Of a DNA stretch of 64,000 nucleotides, positions 31,876 to 38,132 are shown piece after piece; the stretch's first letter is position 1, and every line of letters starts with the position of its first letter. The DNA comes from Caldilineaceae bacterium. GTDB lineage: Bacteria; Chloroflexota; Anaerolineae; Caldilineales; Caldilineaceae. A program made the translations under genes and the position numbers. The stretch spans positions 1 to 64,000 of the forward strand of contig JALSIX010000140.1 in the NCBI GenBank assembly GCA_026989655.1, read 5' to 3'. A model generated the notes under the pieces. That model saw nothing but the letters and a program-made list of their open reading frames with translations. It was not told the origin of the DNA and searched no databases.

Positions 31876-32442
31876 TCACGGAGAGGAGCATGCGGGCAGC
31901 AGACGCTCCAGGCGGTCCCGGTCGGGCACGCAGCGGGCTGGGATCACCAGCACGGTGTCCCCTGAACCCACGAAGAGCACGTAGAGATCCGAGAGCCGGG
32001 CCACCTGGGTGACCTCCTTCCAGGGCACGAACAGCGTCGCGGGCTCGCCCTCCGTGTCCAGGGCCTCCAGGTGGAGCCCCCCGGGGTGGACCCGAAACAA
32101 CACCCCCCGGAGCAGGGGATGGGTGCGGGTCATCGCCCGGGCCCGGGCCCAGATCTGAAGCCGGACGACCACAGCGGTGTAGAGGGCGTACAGGTAGGCC
32201 AGGGTGGCAACGCCCCAGAACCAGGGGCTCAGGGCCTCTGGGGCCAGAAACCAGAGAGCGGCCACCAGGACCGGTGTCAGCACCAGGACTCCCCAGCCCA
32301 CCAGGTCCGCGAAGCGCCGCCCGGCGGAACCGCGGTACTGGTACCACAGCATGGCCTGCCGATATTCCCGGGGCTGGAGATCCACGGTGAACGCCAGCGT
32401 GTCCTCGTCCTGGGACACCCGGGACACAGCGGTACGGGACAT
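31876..32442 (-). CDS. YcxB-like membrane protein
   Basis: A 188-residue protein with two hydrophobic helices in the middle (LVGWGVLVLTPVLVAALWFL, FWGVATLAYLYALYTAVVV) and the YcxB-type C-terminal domain (HPLLRGVLFRVHPGGLHLE ... VPWKEVTQVARLSDLYVLFV). Function of the family is unknown. ATG 32442 is taken; weaker upstream in-frame ATGs exist. It sits between the DCC-family gene (8-bp gap) and the methyltransferase gene. Confidence 0.7.
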   Translation of the reverse strand: MSRTAVSRVSQDEDTLAFTVDLQPREYRQAMLWYQYRGSAGRRFADLVGWGVLVLTPVLVAALWFLAPEALSPWFWGVATLAYLYALYTAVVVRLQIWARARAMTRTHPLLRGVLFRVHPGGLHLEALDTEGEPATLFVPWKEVTQVARLSDLYVLFVGSGDTVLVIPARCVPDRDRLERLLPACSSP

Positions 32443-32450
32443 GGCAACGC

Positions 32451-32855
32451 TCACGGAGTCCAGGGAGGGTCCCATTCCAGGGCAGGGCGGATCCCAGGCA
32501 GGCGTCCCCGATGTCGGGCCACCCAATCATACACCCGATCGGCCAGCCCGGCCACCGGGCCGGCCCGGTACAAGGCCTGGCCGCATCCCAGACCCGTTGC
32601 CCGATCCAGGGCGGCCAGGATGGCCTGGGCGCCGGCGTAGCGGGTGCCGTCGGGAAGGACGAGCCACGCAGCGGCCCGGGCCTCCTGGGCCTCCACACCG
32701 GCACGCTCCCGGATCGCGTCCCACTGGGCAGGGGCGATGTAGAGTCGTCGTCGACGATCCAGCCGACGCAGCCACAGGGCTGTGGCCGTTCAGAACCCTC
32801 AGGTGCCGTCGAAGAGCACGATGGCCTGATCGGCCCTGGGTGGCAGCACGTCCAT
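32451..32855 (-). CDS. DCC-family thiol-disulfide oxidoreductase, probable double selenoprotein (UxxU)
   Basis: Read through two in-frame UGAs this is a 134-residue DCC (DUF393) protein of normal family length. It starts at ATG 32855 with GGAGGAG 6 nt upstream. The family motif LFDG-x-C-x-F-C appears as VLFDGT-U-GF-U-TATALWLRRLDRRRRL, with U19 and U22 replacing exactly both Cys of the CxxC. Downstream the family pattern continues (APAQ, LVLPDGTRYAGAQAILAAL, RVYDWVARHRGRLPG). No other stop interrupts the 112 codons after the second UGA. It follows purD by 89 bp in the purine operon. DCC proteins are predicted thioredoxin-fold redox enzymes; a UxxU form would make a diselenide. Selenocysteine insertion is inferred. 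Confidence 0.82.
32769..32801 (-). promoter_or_regulatory. Two UGA recoding codons with SECIS-like hairpin
   Basis: On the minus strand UGA1 is at 32799-32801 and UGA2 at 32790-32792, separated by GGG UUC. An 8-bp stem, CGGCCACA (32781-32788) with UGUGGCUG (32769-32776), closes a GCCC loop (32777-32780). The loop starts 18 nt after UGA1 and 9 nt after UGA2. An alternative 5-bp hairpin (CAGCC with GGCUG, loop CUGU) is possible. Spacing from UGA1 and the loop G fit a bacterial SECIS; how one element would serve both UGAs is unresolved. Confidence 0.6.
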
Positions 32856-32944
32856 GGTCGCTCCTCCCGCGCGCAATGGATGCACAGAGACAGCCCCGCC
32901 CTTCTCGGCCCCGCCTGGAGGACCGGACGTGGGCTTCGGACAGC

Positions 32945-34252
32945 TCAGCGGGAACTCGGTTCCGGGGGACGGGAAGCGGCCCCGGGATGGCCTCGCCGGG
33001 CGATGTCCCGGCGGTAGACTGCACCCGGAAAGTGGATCCGCCCCACCCCGGCGTAGGCCAACGCTGCTGCCTCCTCCAGGCAGGCCCCCACCCCGGTGAC
33101 ATTCAGCACCCGTCCCCCCGCGGTCACCGGGCGACCCCTCTGCAACACGGTGCCGGCGTGGAACACCCGACAGCCCAGGGCCTCCGCGTCCTCGATCCCG
33201 TGGATGGGATGGCCCGTCTCATAGGCACCGGGATATCCCTGGGAGGCCATGACCACCGTCACCGCGGCCTGGGAGGACCACCGTGGAAGGAACCGATCCA
33301 GGGAGCCCTCGATACAGGCGCGAAGCAGGGGCACCAGGTCGTCCTCCAGCAGGGGCAGGATCACCTGGGCTTCCGGATCGCCGAAACGGCAGTTGAACTC
33401 CAACACCTTGGGCCCCTGGGCGGTCCACATGAGCCCTGCGTAGAGGACACCCACATAGGGCGCGCCCTCCGCGGCCAGGCCGGCCAGGGTGGGCTCCAGG
33501 ATCTCCCGGACCACCCGGTCCAGGAGCTCCGGGGTGGCCAGGGGCGAGGGCCCGAACGCGCCCATGCCCCCGGTGTTGGGCCCGCGATCGCCGTCCAACA
33601 GGCGCTTGTGGTCCTGGACAGGGGGCATCACCCCCACGGTGTGGCCATCGGTCAGGGCCAGGATCGACAGCTCGGGACCCTGCAGCCGCTCCTCCACCAG
33701 CACGGTGGCCCCGGCCGGGCCAAAACGGCCGTGGACCAACATGGCCTCCAGGCCGGCCACCGCCTCCTGGACGGTCTCGGGCAGGAGGACCCCCTTGCCT
33801 CCGGCCAGGCCACTGGCCTTGATCACCGGAAGGGTCTCCATCCCCTCCACGTACGCGACGGCCTCTGCCAGGTCCTGGAAGATCCGGGCCCGGGCCGTGG
33901 GGATGCCATGGCGTTCCATGAAGGCCTTCGCAAAGGCCTTGGAGCCCTCCAGCCGGGCCGCGGCCTGGCTGGGGCCGAAGATGGCCAGGCCCGCAGCCCG
34001 GAACCGGTCCACGATGCCGGCCACCAGGGGAGCCTCCGGCCCCACCACGGTCAGGTCCACCGCCGCCTCCTGGGCAAAGCGGAGCAGACCGTCCAGATCG
34101 GTGGCCTGCAGGGGCACGTTGCGACATCGGGGCGTGGAGGCCGTGCCCCCGTTGCCCGGGGCCACGAAGATCTGCTCCACCCCGTTGGAGCGGCTCAGCT
34201 TCCAGGCCAGGGCGTGCTCTCGCCCCCCCGAACCGATCACCAGCAGCTTCAT
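32945..34252 (-). CDS. purD: Phosphoribosylamine-glycine ligase
   Basis: GARS, 435 residues, ATP-grasp enzyme joining glycine to 5-phosphoribosylamine in step 2 of purine synthesis. Motifs: N-terminal KLLVIGSGGREHALAWKL, FGPSQAAARLEGSKAF, VIKASGLAGGKGV, PVQDHKR-LLDGDRGPNTGGMGA and LEFNCRFGDPEAQ. The start overlaps the purF stop by 4 nt (ATGA). The DCC-family gene follows after 89 bp. Confidence 0.97.
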   Translation of the reverse strand: MKLLVIGSGGREHALAWKLSRSNGVEQIFVAPGNGGTASTPRCRNVPLQATDLDGLLRFAQEAAVDLTVVGPEAPLVAGIVDRFRAAGLAIFGPSQAAARLEGSKAFAKAFMERHGIPTARARIFQDLAEAVAYVEGMETLPVIKASGLAGGKGVLLPETVQEAVAGLEAMLVHGRFGPAGATVLVEERLQGPELSILALTDGHTVGVMPPVQDHKRLLDGDRGPNTGGMGAFGPSPLATPELLDRVVREILEPTLAGLAAEGAPYVGVLYAGLMWTAQGPKVLEFNCRFGDPEAQVILPLLEDDLVPLLRACIEGSLDRFLPRWSSQAAVTVVMASQGYPGAYETGHPIHGIEDAEALGCRVFHAGTVLQRGRPVTAGGRVLNVTGVGACLEEAAALAYAGVGRIHFPGAVYRRDIARRGHPGAASRPPEPSSR

Positions 34253-35715
34253 CGAGGATCTCCCCAGACCGTGGACAGGGCCTCCTTCTCCTGGAGCGCC
34301 AGGTAGGGTATCGGCCCTGGAAACGGATACCGGCCGTGGAAACAGGCGTTGCAGTACCCGTCCACGGCGCCCAAGGCCGCCATCATCCCCTGGATGGAGA
34401 GATAGGCCAGGGAATCCGCGCCGATGTGCTCCCGGATGGCTTCCAGGGAACGGTGGGCCGCGATGAGCTCCTCCTGGCGGGCCATGTCCACGCCCATGAA
34501 GCAGGGATAGCGGATGGGCGGACAGGCCACCCGAAGATGGACCTCCCGGGCTCCGGCCTCTCGGAGCATCTGGACCAAGGGCCCACTGGTGTTCCCCCGG
34601 ACGATGGAGTCGTCCACCAGGACCACCCGCTTGCCCCTGAGGTTGTCCGGCAGGGGGTTGAACTTCATGGCCACACCCATCCGGCGCAGGTGGTGGGTGG
34701 GCTGGATGAAGGTCCGCCCGATGTAGCGGCTCTTGATGAGCCCCTCGCTGTAGGGGATGCCGCTCTCCTGCGCGTACCCGATGGCATGGGGGGTCCCGGA
34801 ATCCGGCACGGGGACCACCATGTCCGCGTCGGCGGGGGCCTCCCGGGCCAGTTGGCGGCCCAGGGCCTGGCGCACCTGGTGGACCAGCCGCCCGTTCAGC
34901 ACGCTGTCCGGTCGGGCGAAGTAGATCTCCTCGAAGGTACAGAAGGCACGGGGATAGGGGGCCATTCCCTGTGCCTGGGTGCAGCCCTGGGCATCCACCC
35001 GGACCACCATGCCCGGCGCCACCTCCTGGACCATCCGGGCCCCGATGGCCCCGAAGGCACAGCTCTCGGAGGCCAGGACGAAGCCACGGTCCAGCGCACC
35101 CAGGGCCAAGGGCCGCAGTCCCCAGGGATCCCGGACACCGTAGATCGCTTCCTGGGTGAGGACCACCAGGGTGTACGCGCCCTGGAGCCGGGGCATGACC
35201 TCCTGGATGCGCTCCATCCAGCTCCCCCGGGCCCGGGCCAGCAGGTGGAGGATCAGCTCGCTGTCCGTGGATGTGGACAGCCCTACCCCCTGCTCCAGGA
35301 GCTCCCGGCGGAGCTGGGGCGCGTTGACCAGGTTGCCGTTGTGGGCAATGGCCAGAGGCCCGGCCAGGGTCTCCAGGATATAGGGCTGGGTGTTCCGCAG
35401 CCGGGGCGCGCCGGTGGTGGAATAGCGGGTGTGGCCAACGGCCAGATGGCCCCGGAGGTGGCTCAGGTTCTCCTCGTTGAAGACCTGGGACACCAACCCC
35501 AGGCCCTTGTGGATGTGGGCGATGGCGCCGTCACAGGTGACGATCCCCGCGCCCTCCTGGCCTCGATGCTGGAGCGCGTAGAGGGCAAAGTACGCGAGAC
35601 GGGCCGCGTCCTTTCCCGGGACGCAGAGCCCCAGCACGCCGCAGGCCTCTCGGGGCCCGTCCAGGGGCAGCCCCGAAGCATCGGCAGGCCCGGGGGCCTC
35701 CCAACGGTGTCCCAT
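34249..35715 (-). CDS. purF: Amidophosphoribosyltransferase
   Basis: A 488-residue enzyme for the first committed purine step (PRPP + glutamine to phosphoribosylamine). An N-terminal propeptide of 24 residues precedes the nucleophile Cys25 in EACGVLGL, as in the processed Bacillus-type enzymes. The glutaminase domain has YALQHRGQEGAGIV and TGAPRLRNTQP; the PRTase domain carries VVLVDDSIVRGNTS. Several C-terminal Cys (VACPPIRYPCF, NACF) may be the Fe-S ligands of that class. It is 5 bp after purE and overlaps purD. Confidence 0.97.
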   Translation of the reverse strand: MGHRWEAPGPADASGLPLDGPREACGVLGLCVPGKDAARLAYFALYALQHRGQEGAGIVTCDGAIAHIHKGLGLVSQVFNEENLSHLRGHLAVGHTRYSTTGAPRLRNTQPYILETLAGPLAIAHNGNLVNAPQLRRELLEQGVGLSTSTDSELILHLLARARGSWMERIQEVMPRLQGAYTLVVLTQEAIYGVRDPWGLRPLALGALDRGFVLASESCAFGAIGARMVQEVAPGMVVRVDAQGCTQAQGMAPYPRAFCTFEEIYFARPDSVLNGRLVHQVRQALGRQLAREAPADADMVVPVPDSGTPHAIGYAQESGIPYSEGLIKSRYIGRTFIQPTHHLRRMGVAMKFNPLPDNLRGKRVVLVDDSIVRGNTSGPLVQMLREAGAREVHLRVACPPIRYPCFMGVDMARQEELIAAHRSLEAIREHIGADSLAYLSIQGMMAALGAVDGYCNACFHGRYPFPGPIPYLALQEKEALSTVWGDPR

Positions 35716-35720
35716 AACAG

Positions 35721-36185
35721 CTACCCTCCCTCCAGCGCGCGGTCTGCCTGGAGCAGCCGTTGCCGTTCCGCCTCCTGGGCCGCGGCCACCTCCCGCTCGC
35801 GGCCCAGGATCTTGGCTGCCAGGAGGGCCGCGTTGGCCGGCTCCAGGACCACGGCCGGCGCCACCCCCGAGGGCATCCGCAGGCTGGAGAAGATGTCCGC
35901 GCCGGCAAAGGTGCTGCTGGGGGGCGGGCACGCGATGACCGGCGCGGTGGTCTGGGCGTCCACGAAGGCGCTGAGGGCATTGCTGCGGCCGGCCACGGTG
36001 ATGTAGACCCGGGGACCTCCCTGGGCCTCGTAGCGGCGGACCAGCTCCAGGACCCGTTCGGGCACCTTGTGGGCAGAGGCGATGTGGAGCTTGGGCCTCA
36101 GCCCGTAACGGGCCAGGGCCTCCACGATCCGGTCGACGAAGGGACGGTCCGAGGGAGAGCCCATGAGGATGATCACGGTGGACAT
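35721..36185 (-). CDS. purE: AIR carboxylase, class II type PurE
   Basis: A 154-residue PurE-fold protein. The motifs VIILMGSPSDRPFVDRI, SAHKVPERV, ITVAGRSNALSAFVDAQTT and SSLRMPSGVAP match class II AIR carboxylases (the animal PAICS type, WSSLRLPSGLG) better than the class I N5-CAIR mutases (YSIVQMPRG in E. coli). A class II enzyme carboxylates AIR directly with CO2, so no PurK is needed, and no purK gene is present in the window. It lies between purC and purF. Class assignment is from motif comparison by eye. Confidence 0.9.
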   Translation of the reverse strand: MSTVIILMGSPSDRPFVDRIVEALARYGLRPKLHIASAHKVPERVLELVRRYEAQGGPRVYITVAGRSNALSAFVDAQTTAPVIACPPPSSTFAGADIFSSLRMPSGVAPAVVLEPANAALLAAKILGREREVAAAQEAERQRLLQADRALEGG

Positions 36186-36231
36186 GGTCGGCACCTTGGG
36201 TGTGAGGATGGGGACGGTCGATCTCCGGAGC

Positions 36232-37233
36232 TCAGGCGGGCCGCCGGATGGACTGGAGCCAGGCCCGCAGATGGCCCTCCACCCGCGGGGGAACCGGGTA
36301 CTCGCCCGGCTGGAAGGGCCGGCCGGTGAGCATCTCGTAGACCTGGATATAGCGTTCCGCGGCCTGTTGGGCCAGGGCCTCGGGCAGGGGAAAGGGTTCC
36401 CCGTCGCCCCGGTAGCCCTGGGCAGCATAGTGGAGACGGATGAACTCCTTGTCGAAGTTCTCGGGCTCCAATCCCTGGGCCCGTCGCTCCTCGTAGGTGT
36501 CCGCGAGCCAGAACCGGCTGGAGTCCGGGGTGTGGATCTCGTCGATGAGCACGGGCTCCCCCTCCGGGGTCAGCCCGAACTCGTACTTGGTGTCCACCAG
36601 GATCAGCCCACTCCGCCGTGCCAGCTCCTGACCCCGACGGAAGAGGGCGAGGGCGGCCTGGCAGATCTGTTCCCAGAGCTGCGGCTCCACCAGCCCTCGC
36701 TCCACCACCTGGGCACGGGTCAGCCGCTCATCGTGGCCGCCCTGGGTGGCCTTGGTGGTGGGTGTGATGATGGGTTCGGGCAGGGGGTCGTTCTTCTGGA
36801 GCCCCTCGGGGAACACCATGCCGTAGATGACCCGCTCCCCCTGGCTGTAGCGATACCAGAGGGCAGTCCGGGTCACCCCGGTGATGTAGCCCCGGACGAT
36901 GACCTCCACCGGCAGCGGACGGCAGCGCCGGGCCACGGTCACGTTGGGGTCGGGCACCTCCAGAAGGTGGTTGTGGATGATGTCCTGGGTCTGCTCGAAC
37001 CAGAAGGCAGAGAGCTGGTTCAGCACCTGGCCCTTGTAGGGGACCGTGCCCAGGATCCGATCGAACGCGGACAGCCGGTCCGTGGCGACCAACACCAGAT
37101 AGTCGTCCACGGTGTAGATGTCCCGGACCTTACCCTGTTGTCGGGGACCCAGGAAGGGCAGCTCCACCCCGGTGAAAGGGTGGGCCAACCCCTGACGGAT
37201 GCGGTGGTGGGGGACGTGGGGAGATGGTGCCAT
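36232..37233 (-). CDS. purC: SAICAR synthetase
   Basis: A 333-residue phosphoribosylaminoimidazole-succinocarboxamide synthase of the longer type. Motifs: GKVRDIYTVDDYLVLVATDRLSAFD, VIVRGYITG and the C-terminal LVDTKYEFG and DEIHTPDSSRFW. ATG 37233 has GGAGG 7 nt upstream. Directly followed by purE, whose product makes its substrate. Confidence 0.96.
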   Translation of the reverse strand: MAPSPHVPHHRIRQGLAHPFTGVELPFLGPRQQGKVRDIYTVDDYLVLVATDRLSAFDRILGTVPYKGQVLNQLSAFWFEQTQDIIHNHLLEVPDPNVTVARRCRPLPVEVIVRGYITGVTRTALWYRYSQGERVIYGMVFPEGLQKNDPLPEPIITPTTKATQGGHDERLTRAQVVERGLVEPQLWEQICQAALALFRRGQELARRSGLILVDTKYEFGLTPEGEPVLIDEIHTPDSSRFWLADTYEERRAQGLEPENFDKEFIRLHYAAQGYRGDGEPFPLPEALAQQAAERYIQVYEMLTGRPFQPGEYPVPPRVEGHLRAWLQSIRRPA

Positions 37234-37259
37234 GGGATCGCCTCCGGATCGGGGTCGGT

Positions 37260-38051
37260 TCAGGGATGAAGCATCCATTCGAACAGCCGCAGACCCAGGC
37301 CACGGCCGTCTCGCAGCGGGTTCTGGAGCGGAACCACGTGGTCCTCGGGGTGGGGCATGAGGCCCACCACGTTGCCCTGCCGGTTGCAGAGGCCCGCGAT
37401 GTCCGCGACGGAGCCGTTGGGGTTCAGGGGATAGCGCCCCCGGGCCGGCTGCCCCACCGAGTCCACATAGCGGAAGAGCACGTGGCCGCCTGCCTCCAGC
37501 GCGGCCAAAGTCCCTGGATCCACGACCTGGAAGTTCCCCTCGCCGTGGGCCACGGGACAGAAGAGAGGCGCCTCCATCTTCCGGGAGAGGGGAGCCCGGC
37601 AGTTCGGGTCCAGGGCCAGATGGACCCATCGACACTCGAAACGCCCCGAGGCATTGGGGGCCAGGGTGACGCGTCGGGTGTCCGGGCCCCAGGCAGGCGC
37701 CCCCTCCGCGTCCGAAAGTCTCCCGGGAAGCAGGCCAAGTTTCACCAGGGCCTGAAAGCCGTTGCAGATCCCCAACACCCGGCCTCCGCGCTCCACGAAG
37801 GCCTGCAGCTCTTCCTGGAAGAAGGCCCACAGGTCCAGGGCCAGGCGGGTGCCCGCGCCCAGGGCATCCCCGTAGGTGAAGCCCCCGGGCAGAAGGAGCA
37901 GATCGTAGTCCCGCAGACGGCGCTCGCCCCCGCGTAGCTGACGAATGTGGACGATCTCGGGGACACCGCCGGCCAGCTCACAGGCCCAGGCGGCCTCGCG
38001 GTCCCGGTTGGTCCCTGGGGCATGGAGGATGAGCACGGAAGGTCGGGCCAT
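37260..38051 (-). CDS. purQ: FGAM synthase glutaminase subunit
   Basis: A 263-residue class I glutamine amidotransferase supplying ammonia to PurL. The nucleophile elbow is GICNGFQAL, the oxyanion region is [16 protein letters not shown], and the catalytic His/Glu are in [10 protein letters not shown]. It sits between purL and purC, 26 bp before purC. Confidence 0.96.
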
Positions 38052-38132
38052 GGCTACATACCGATGCCAGATCCAAGGCGGACAAAGGGTTGGCGGTCCG
38101 ATCGGGCGCTCCATGGAACTCGGACTGGGACG

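Follow-up and report, generated by a model that had tools for sequence, protein, structure and literature searches.

We find that a small gene of the DCC family, lying in a 64,000-nt stretch of DNA from a Caldilineaceae bacterium (hereafter the window), is very likely a selenoprotein gene with in-frame UGA codons at its redox-active Cys positions, a reading made without protein or selenium data. Computation shows the UGAs themselves, the selenocysteine (Sec) machinery, the alternation of UGA and Cys among relatives, purifying selection downstream of the UGAs and hairpins across the family. Sec at both sites, 19 and 22, is likely, with actual insertion inferred in the absence of protein or selenium data.

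Two in-frame UGA codons at the CxxC positions of a DCC gene

The coding features of the gene are as follows.

32451..32855, minus strand: DCC-family (PF04134) gene, very likely a selenoprotein gene; 134 aa with U19 and U22, from translation with TGA=U, a Pfam score of 66 bits and 60 homologous UGA-bearing loci
32861..32868, minus strand: ribosome-binding site GGGAGGAG, 5 nt before the ATG of the DCC gene, from the sequence
32801-32799, minus strand: UGA1 (codon 19), at the first DxxUxxU site, where CxxC relatives have Cys
32792-32790, minus strand: UGA2 (codon 22), at the second DxxUxxU site, where CxxC relatives have Cys
32453-32451, minus strand: terminal stop UGA of the DCC gene

With UGA read as U, the product is MDVLPPRADQAIVLFDGTUGFUTATALWLRRLDRRRRLYIAP...DPPWTP, followed by the terminal UGA. 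The in-frame UGAs fall exactly on the CxxC positions of the family, with the D-x-x-C-x-x-C motif positions kept as D16-G-T-U19-G-F-U22 and both Cys present as Sec codons. When the UGAs are read as Cys, PF04134 is matched with an E-value of 9e-18 and 66 bits, against a curated cut-off of 27.8, and residues 13-121 of the product align to positions 1-112 of the 113 in the profile; apart from the two UGAs, no stop interrupts the domain in translation. Conventional annotation ends the gene at UGA1 or begins a shorter ORF after UGA2, and the 81-aa ORF from GTG 32696 in the ORF list is such a truncated form. An initial annotation, made from sequence alone, had placed the gene at these coordinates without stating the strand, and had described two in-frame UGAs at both DCC Cys positions, family sequence on either side, a strong ribosome site and a normal length; all of this holds.

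The genome that carries the gene (4.09 Mb, 150 contigs, ~99% complete) encodes selA, selB, selC and selD, the four genes for which the initial annotation had proposed a search. The tRNA-Sec (selC) is on contig C109 with anticodon UCA and 73.6 bits, SelB on C65 (325 bits) and SelA on C86 (582 bits), the last two over cut-off; in SelD, on C118 (332 bits), the catalytic position is itself encoded by UGA (VACAGUASK). Of the window genes checked, 9/11 end in UGA as their normal stop, the DCC gene included. The selD gene (G000:C118:17962-18957) is thus a selenoprotein gene itself, and two tandem hairpins follow its UGA with loops 14 and 32 nt away, the second loop being GGUCG; they may parallel the hairpins of the DCC gene described below, which is suggestive only.

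UGA and Cys alternate at both motif positions across relatives

Relatives of the gene occupy all four states, CxxC, UxxC, CxxU and UxxU. We find 60 distinct UGA-bearing DCC loci, the window's included, of which 37 are UxxU, 15 CxxU and 8 UxxC, alongside 49 CxxC relatives; beyond the window's gene, 36 loci have two UGAs at the same positions and 23 have one. All 97 UGAs in the 60 loci lie at the two motif positions, and the frame is open thereafter to normal length. These loci come from several searches. A survey of 60 related genomes revealed two additional genes with both UGAs, beside CxxC relatives: G016, from the same family as the window's genome, 45% identical with the motif DGTUGFUT and the nearest UxxU relative, and G047, from the same class, with IIDGWUGFUT. 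A class-wide profile search (396 genomes) yielded 60 DCC loci in which the motif could be read (13 UU, 11 CU, 3 UC and 33 CC), and a phylum-wide profile search (400 genomes) contributed a further 21 loci with UGA, the majority from outside the window's class. Searching named genome contigs for the DNA pattern FDGxUGFU added 12 loci after removal of overlaps, from Thermomicrobiales, Rubrobacteraceae, other Actinomycetota, Chloroflexota and one contig labelled Candidatus Brocadia; these 12 were selected for both UGAs, and the other 48/60 were not selected for UGA. The pattern matches outside DCC genes, which make up most of the 54 stretches, were rejected as chance matches.

Several of these loci merit separate mention. 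The genome G745 has two copies of the DCC gene, one UxxU and one CxxC (L173 and L188). The contig labelled Candidatus Brocadia sp. WS118 (PHFX01000251.1, locus L119) carries a UxxU gene nested among Chloroflexota sequences of the HWLIWDG clade, a placement that may reflect mis-binning of the contig or gene transfer. In the assembly Myxococcales bacterium nzgw257, two contigs (L100 and L146) share ~45 codons ending in LLVFDGDUGFUTD and then diverge; they do not encode a DCC protein over the full length.

SelA is detected in 53/60 genomes with UGA-bearing DCC loci (24/27, 19/21 and 10/12 by group), versus 1/12 genomes matched by the DNA pattern by chance. The seven UGA genomes without a detected selA are mostly incomplete or fragmented assemblies, and tRNA-Sec is found in 2/3 of the class-level ones. 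Since the Sec trait is common in the window's class (selA in 318/396 genomes), this co-occurrence adds little within the class and is supporting rather than decisive. One genome, G149, has two tRNA-Sec matches over the Rfam cut-off (70.9 and 51.3 bits).

In a phylogeny of 109 proteins from which the two motif sites were left out, the four states require at least 21 changes, with 14 at site 1 and 15 at site 2; many forks are poorly resolved, and the change count is a guide only. The window's protein groups with that of G016 (support 82), inside a starred set of four that holds UU, CC and UC. Across 12 Sec pairs, the 98-115 codons that follow the second site have a dN/dS of 0.15-0.35, and therefore the part 3' of the UGAs is translated and selected; for the window's gene against G016 the ratio is 0.35, with synonymous sites near saturation in that pair. 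Purifying selection on the sequence downstream of the UGAs in DCC Sec genes is thus shown by computation.

These comparisons support the selenoprotein reading of the initial annotation; the diselenide and redox function it proposed remain inferred. The alternation of UGA and Cys in homologues, for which it had proposed a test, is seen exactly at both positions and in all four combinations, no frame damage is seen elsewhere in the gene among relatives, and its argument that chance mutation of both Cys codons is improbable holds, as the same pattern recurs in dozens of loci. Sequencing error (TGA read where TGC or TGT stands) can in practice be ruled out, since UGA at these positions recurs in 60 loci across numerous genomes. 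Its statement that UxxU is rare fails for DCC proteins, where UxxU is the commonest Sec state.

SECIS-like hairpins in the family and in the window's gene

Published rules for bacterial SECIS elements (PMC13188914) specify a loop of 3-9 nt, G in the first two loop positions, a loop 16-37 nt from the UGA and an energy of at most -7.5. Across the DCC family the most stable simple downstream hairpin has its loop at a constant distance from the motif, 26-27 nt from UGA1 and 17-18 nt from UGA2, and the best hairpin sits at +17/18 nt after UGA2 in 32/37 UU, 15/15 CU and 4/8 UC genes, versus only 11/49 CC genes. Relative to synonymous-codon shuffles it shows excess stability in UU (mean z -1.6) and CU (-2.6) genes, and not in CC genes (+0.3). 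Likewise, the published bSECIS model is met by 31/37 UU and 15/15 CU genes, versus 17.6 and 5.7 expected from synonymous shuffles, and by 8/49 CC genes versus 14.9 expected, i.e., below expectation. Stem pairs vary on both sides (e.g., CG/TA/GC/AT at one pair), and the loops are GUG, GUC, GGU and similar. Related sequences are not independent, and these counts overstate significance.

The hairpin of E. coli fdhF is similarly placed just after its UGA, with a small loop holding a G, and its loop starts ~18 nt from the UGA, the spacing also seen for UGA2 in most DCC members. The DCC genes differ in having two UGAs 6 nt apart before apparently one hairpin, or, in the window's gene, two tandem hairpins. 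The one hairpin falls in the 16-37 nt range for each of the two UGAs; a single SECIS could thus be enough for the pair, and we consider it likely that it is in most family members. The idea that hairpin spacing always tracks the UGA was rejected as unsupported in UxxC genes, where no clear shift of the hairpin to suit UGA1 is seen. Two CxxC genes, L049 (G132) and L053 (G261), are sisters of a CxxU gene (L052 of G294) and have a hairpin at the SECIS position that beats most synonymous shuffles; these hairpins are possibly relics of a recent Sec-to-Cys change.

The window's gene is an exception: the usual hairpin position of the family is empty, and two tandem hairpins are found instead.

32769..32788, minus strand: hairpin 1, 8 bp, CGGCCACA-GCCC-TGTGGCTG, loop GCCC at 32780-32777; candidate SECIS for UGA1
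32749..32768, minus strand: hairpin 2, 7 bp, loop UGGAUC at 32761-32756; candidate SECIS for both UGAs

The loop of hairpin 1 is 18 nt after UGA1 and 9 nt after UGA2, and all four published rules are met for UGA1 only; its energy is -12.6 kcal/mol (p 0.05 vs synonymous shuffles). The initial annotation had reported this 8-bp hairpin with its loop 18 nt after the first UGA, which holds, and had missed the second, 7-bp hairpin immediately downstream; hairpin 1 fits the published spacing rule only in part, suiting UGA1 (18 nt) and not UGA2 (9 nt). The loop of hairpin 2 lies 37 nt after UGA1 and 28 nt after UGA2, and this hairpin, unlike hairpin 1, meets all four published rules for both UGAs. Its helix and loop are common to G016, with one pair changed on both sides (T-A to C-G) and one G-T changed to G-C. 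Hairpin 2 is nevertheless no stronger than synonymous shuffles (p 0.4; z -0.37), i.e., the rules are met but do not discriminate in this gene. The 62 nt from UGA1 fold with z = -2.5 vs dinucleotide shuffles. Which hairpin works is inferred, with hairpin 2, or both, a possible working SECIS.

Proposed function, rival explanations and relation to known selenoproteins

An AlphaFold model obtained with 38 family members is confident (pLDDT 90) and predicts a strand at 11-15 followed by residues 19-22 at the start of a helix spanning 20-32, such that Sec19 is predicted to lie just before helix 1 of a thioredoxin-like core and Sec22 in the opening turn of that helix. The start of a helix after a strand is the usual place of CxxC in thioredoxin-like proteins. 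Structural comparison is weak, with best matches to GST-type and thioredoxin chains at only Z 4-6 (best Z 5.9); Foldseek returns no match to the model at E below 0.001, and a sequence search of solved structures finds no DCC relative. In the mechanism we propose, both UGAs would be read as selenocysteine by the SelA/SelB/SelC/SelD system, directed by the hairpins just downstream within the coding sequence, and the third UGA would terminate translation. The Sec pair would then form a reductase centre in which one selenolate attacks a disulfide or peroxide of the substrate, the other resolves the attacked intermediate as an intramolecular diselenide, and a thioredoxin-type reductant resets the diselenide. 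The balance of evidence leans modestly toward such a diselenide reductase, with the diselenide step, the substrate and oxidoreductase activity all inferred; without assay data, we infer that the product is a soluble selenol-based oxidoreductase cycling through a diselenide.

Gene neighbourhood gives no clue to the substrate, as the neighbours differ in every relative examined and neither flanking gene is recurrent.

31876..32442, minus strand: downstream neighbour, YcxB-like membrane protein; weak Pfam match, functional link to the DCC gene not shown
32945..34252, minus strand: purD, next gene upstream, on the same strand as the DCC gene; functional link not shown

Purine biosynthesis genes (apparently purQ, purC, purE, purF and purD) lie in a row at 32945-38114 on the minus strand, upstream of the DCC gene.

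The gene might be a dead pseudogene in which two nonsense mutations struck both Cys codons by chance, and the window's copy indeed lacks a close relative and has nothing at the usual SECIS position. We regard this as very unlikely: both UGAs are shared by the 45% identical relative from the same family and recur in dozens of other loci, purifying selection acts on the sequence that follows them, and the domain contains no other stop. A reassigned code, with UGA a sense codon for Trp or Cys in this organism, would also yield a conserved gene with two in-frame UGAs, yet is excluded by the role of UGA as the usual stop of window genes (9/11 checked), the restriction of the UGAs to Cys sites and the presence of the full Sec machinery.

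Less readily dismissed, though still unlikely, is the possibility that only one UGA is efficiently read as Sec in the window's gene, the other leading mostly to termination or to Cys via Cys-charged tRNA-Sec. The spacing of hairpin 1 suits UGA1 only, the usual family position is empty, and UxxC and CxxU relatives show that one Sec suffices; against this, hairpin 2 fits the published rules with respect to either UGA, and UxxU is kept as the commonest Sec state over long divergence, which is unexpected if one UGA mostly killed expression. Finally, Sec may be inserted in an enzyme dedicated to a special substrate, such as a quinone, a small peroxide, or a metal or metalloid, rather than in a general disulfide reductase. 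No conserved neighbour points to a substrate, and no characterised DCC substrate was found in the literature searched; however, thiol-disulfide exchange usually takes place where the DxxCxxC/DxxUxxU motif is placed, at the beginning of helix 1 in a thioredoxin-like core, and we hold the special-substrate alternative to be a serious one that is nevertheless less likely than not. We retain the reading of the gene as encoding a UxxU selenoprotein.

The product resembles other members of PF04134, the DCC1-like thiol-disulfide oxidoreductase family formerly named DUF393, in its full-length domain match, DGxCxxC site and length, and differs from them in that both Cys are UGA-encoded. Sec at one or both Cys of a CxxC redox site is also a feature of the Prx-like thiol:disulfide oxidoreductase selenoproteins (PF00578), which are UxxC or UxxU (PMC9312934, PMC13188914); these belong to a different domain family, and UxxU is one of the two states listed there, whereas CxxU also occurs in DCC. 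A ferredoxin-thioredoxin reductase selenoprotein from the GOS survey (PMC2398784), for which only two sequences were reported, one with two Sec, is likewise predicted to carry two Sec exactly at its two redox-active Cys, in a different protein family. Dozens of selenoprotein families are covered by reviews from 2022 and 2026 and by the deep-Sep study, and UxxU is recorded there for Prx-like, mercuric-reductase-like and FmdB proteins; DCC, DUF393, COG3011 and PF04134 were not found in the relevant passages of these two prokaryotic catalogues or of the deep-Sep study. No DCC selenoprotein appears in the full-text literature searched (subscription papers, preprints and supplements were outside its scope, and a prior report is not excluded), and NCBIfam (June 2026) holds no model matching one, in agreement with the initial annotation, which knew of no characterised bacterial example.

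DCC proteins thus appear to be an uncatalogued selenoprotein family, widespread in Chloroflexota and neighbours; the selenoprotein claim is very likely, with the same caveat as to a prior report. The prokaryotic selenoproteome would gain an apparently unlisted family present in Chloroflexota (including Thermomicrobiales), Actinomycetota and possibly Planctomycetota, whose genes standard annotation truncates at UGA. A bolder reading, in which a large uncatalogued family uses the UxxU diselenide as its usual Sec form, one SECIS decodes UGAs 6 nt apart (loop 26-27/17-18 nt away) and the window's lineage has moved to tandem hairpins, is one that we favour as a whole by a narrow margin only. Diselenide enzymes are rare, and the DCC family would supply many small, probably soluble, single-domain examples. 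Because four states exist among relatives, the family is a natural experiment on the contribution of each selenium atom and on the recoding of two UGAs by one SECIS.

Plasmid and phage collections contain no match to the DCC protein. A second, distant DCC domain, with CPFC, is encoded in the genome from which the window comes (L001, G000:C132:366-689); it sits in a longer 493-aa open frame, seemingly with a hydrophobic segment.
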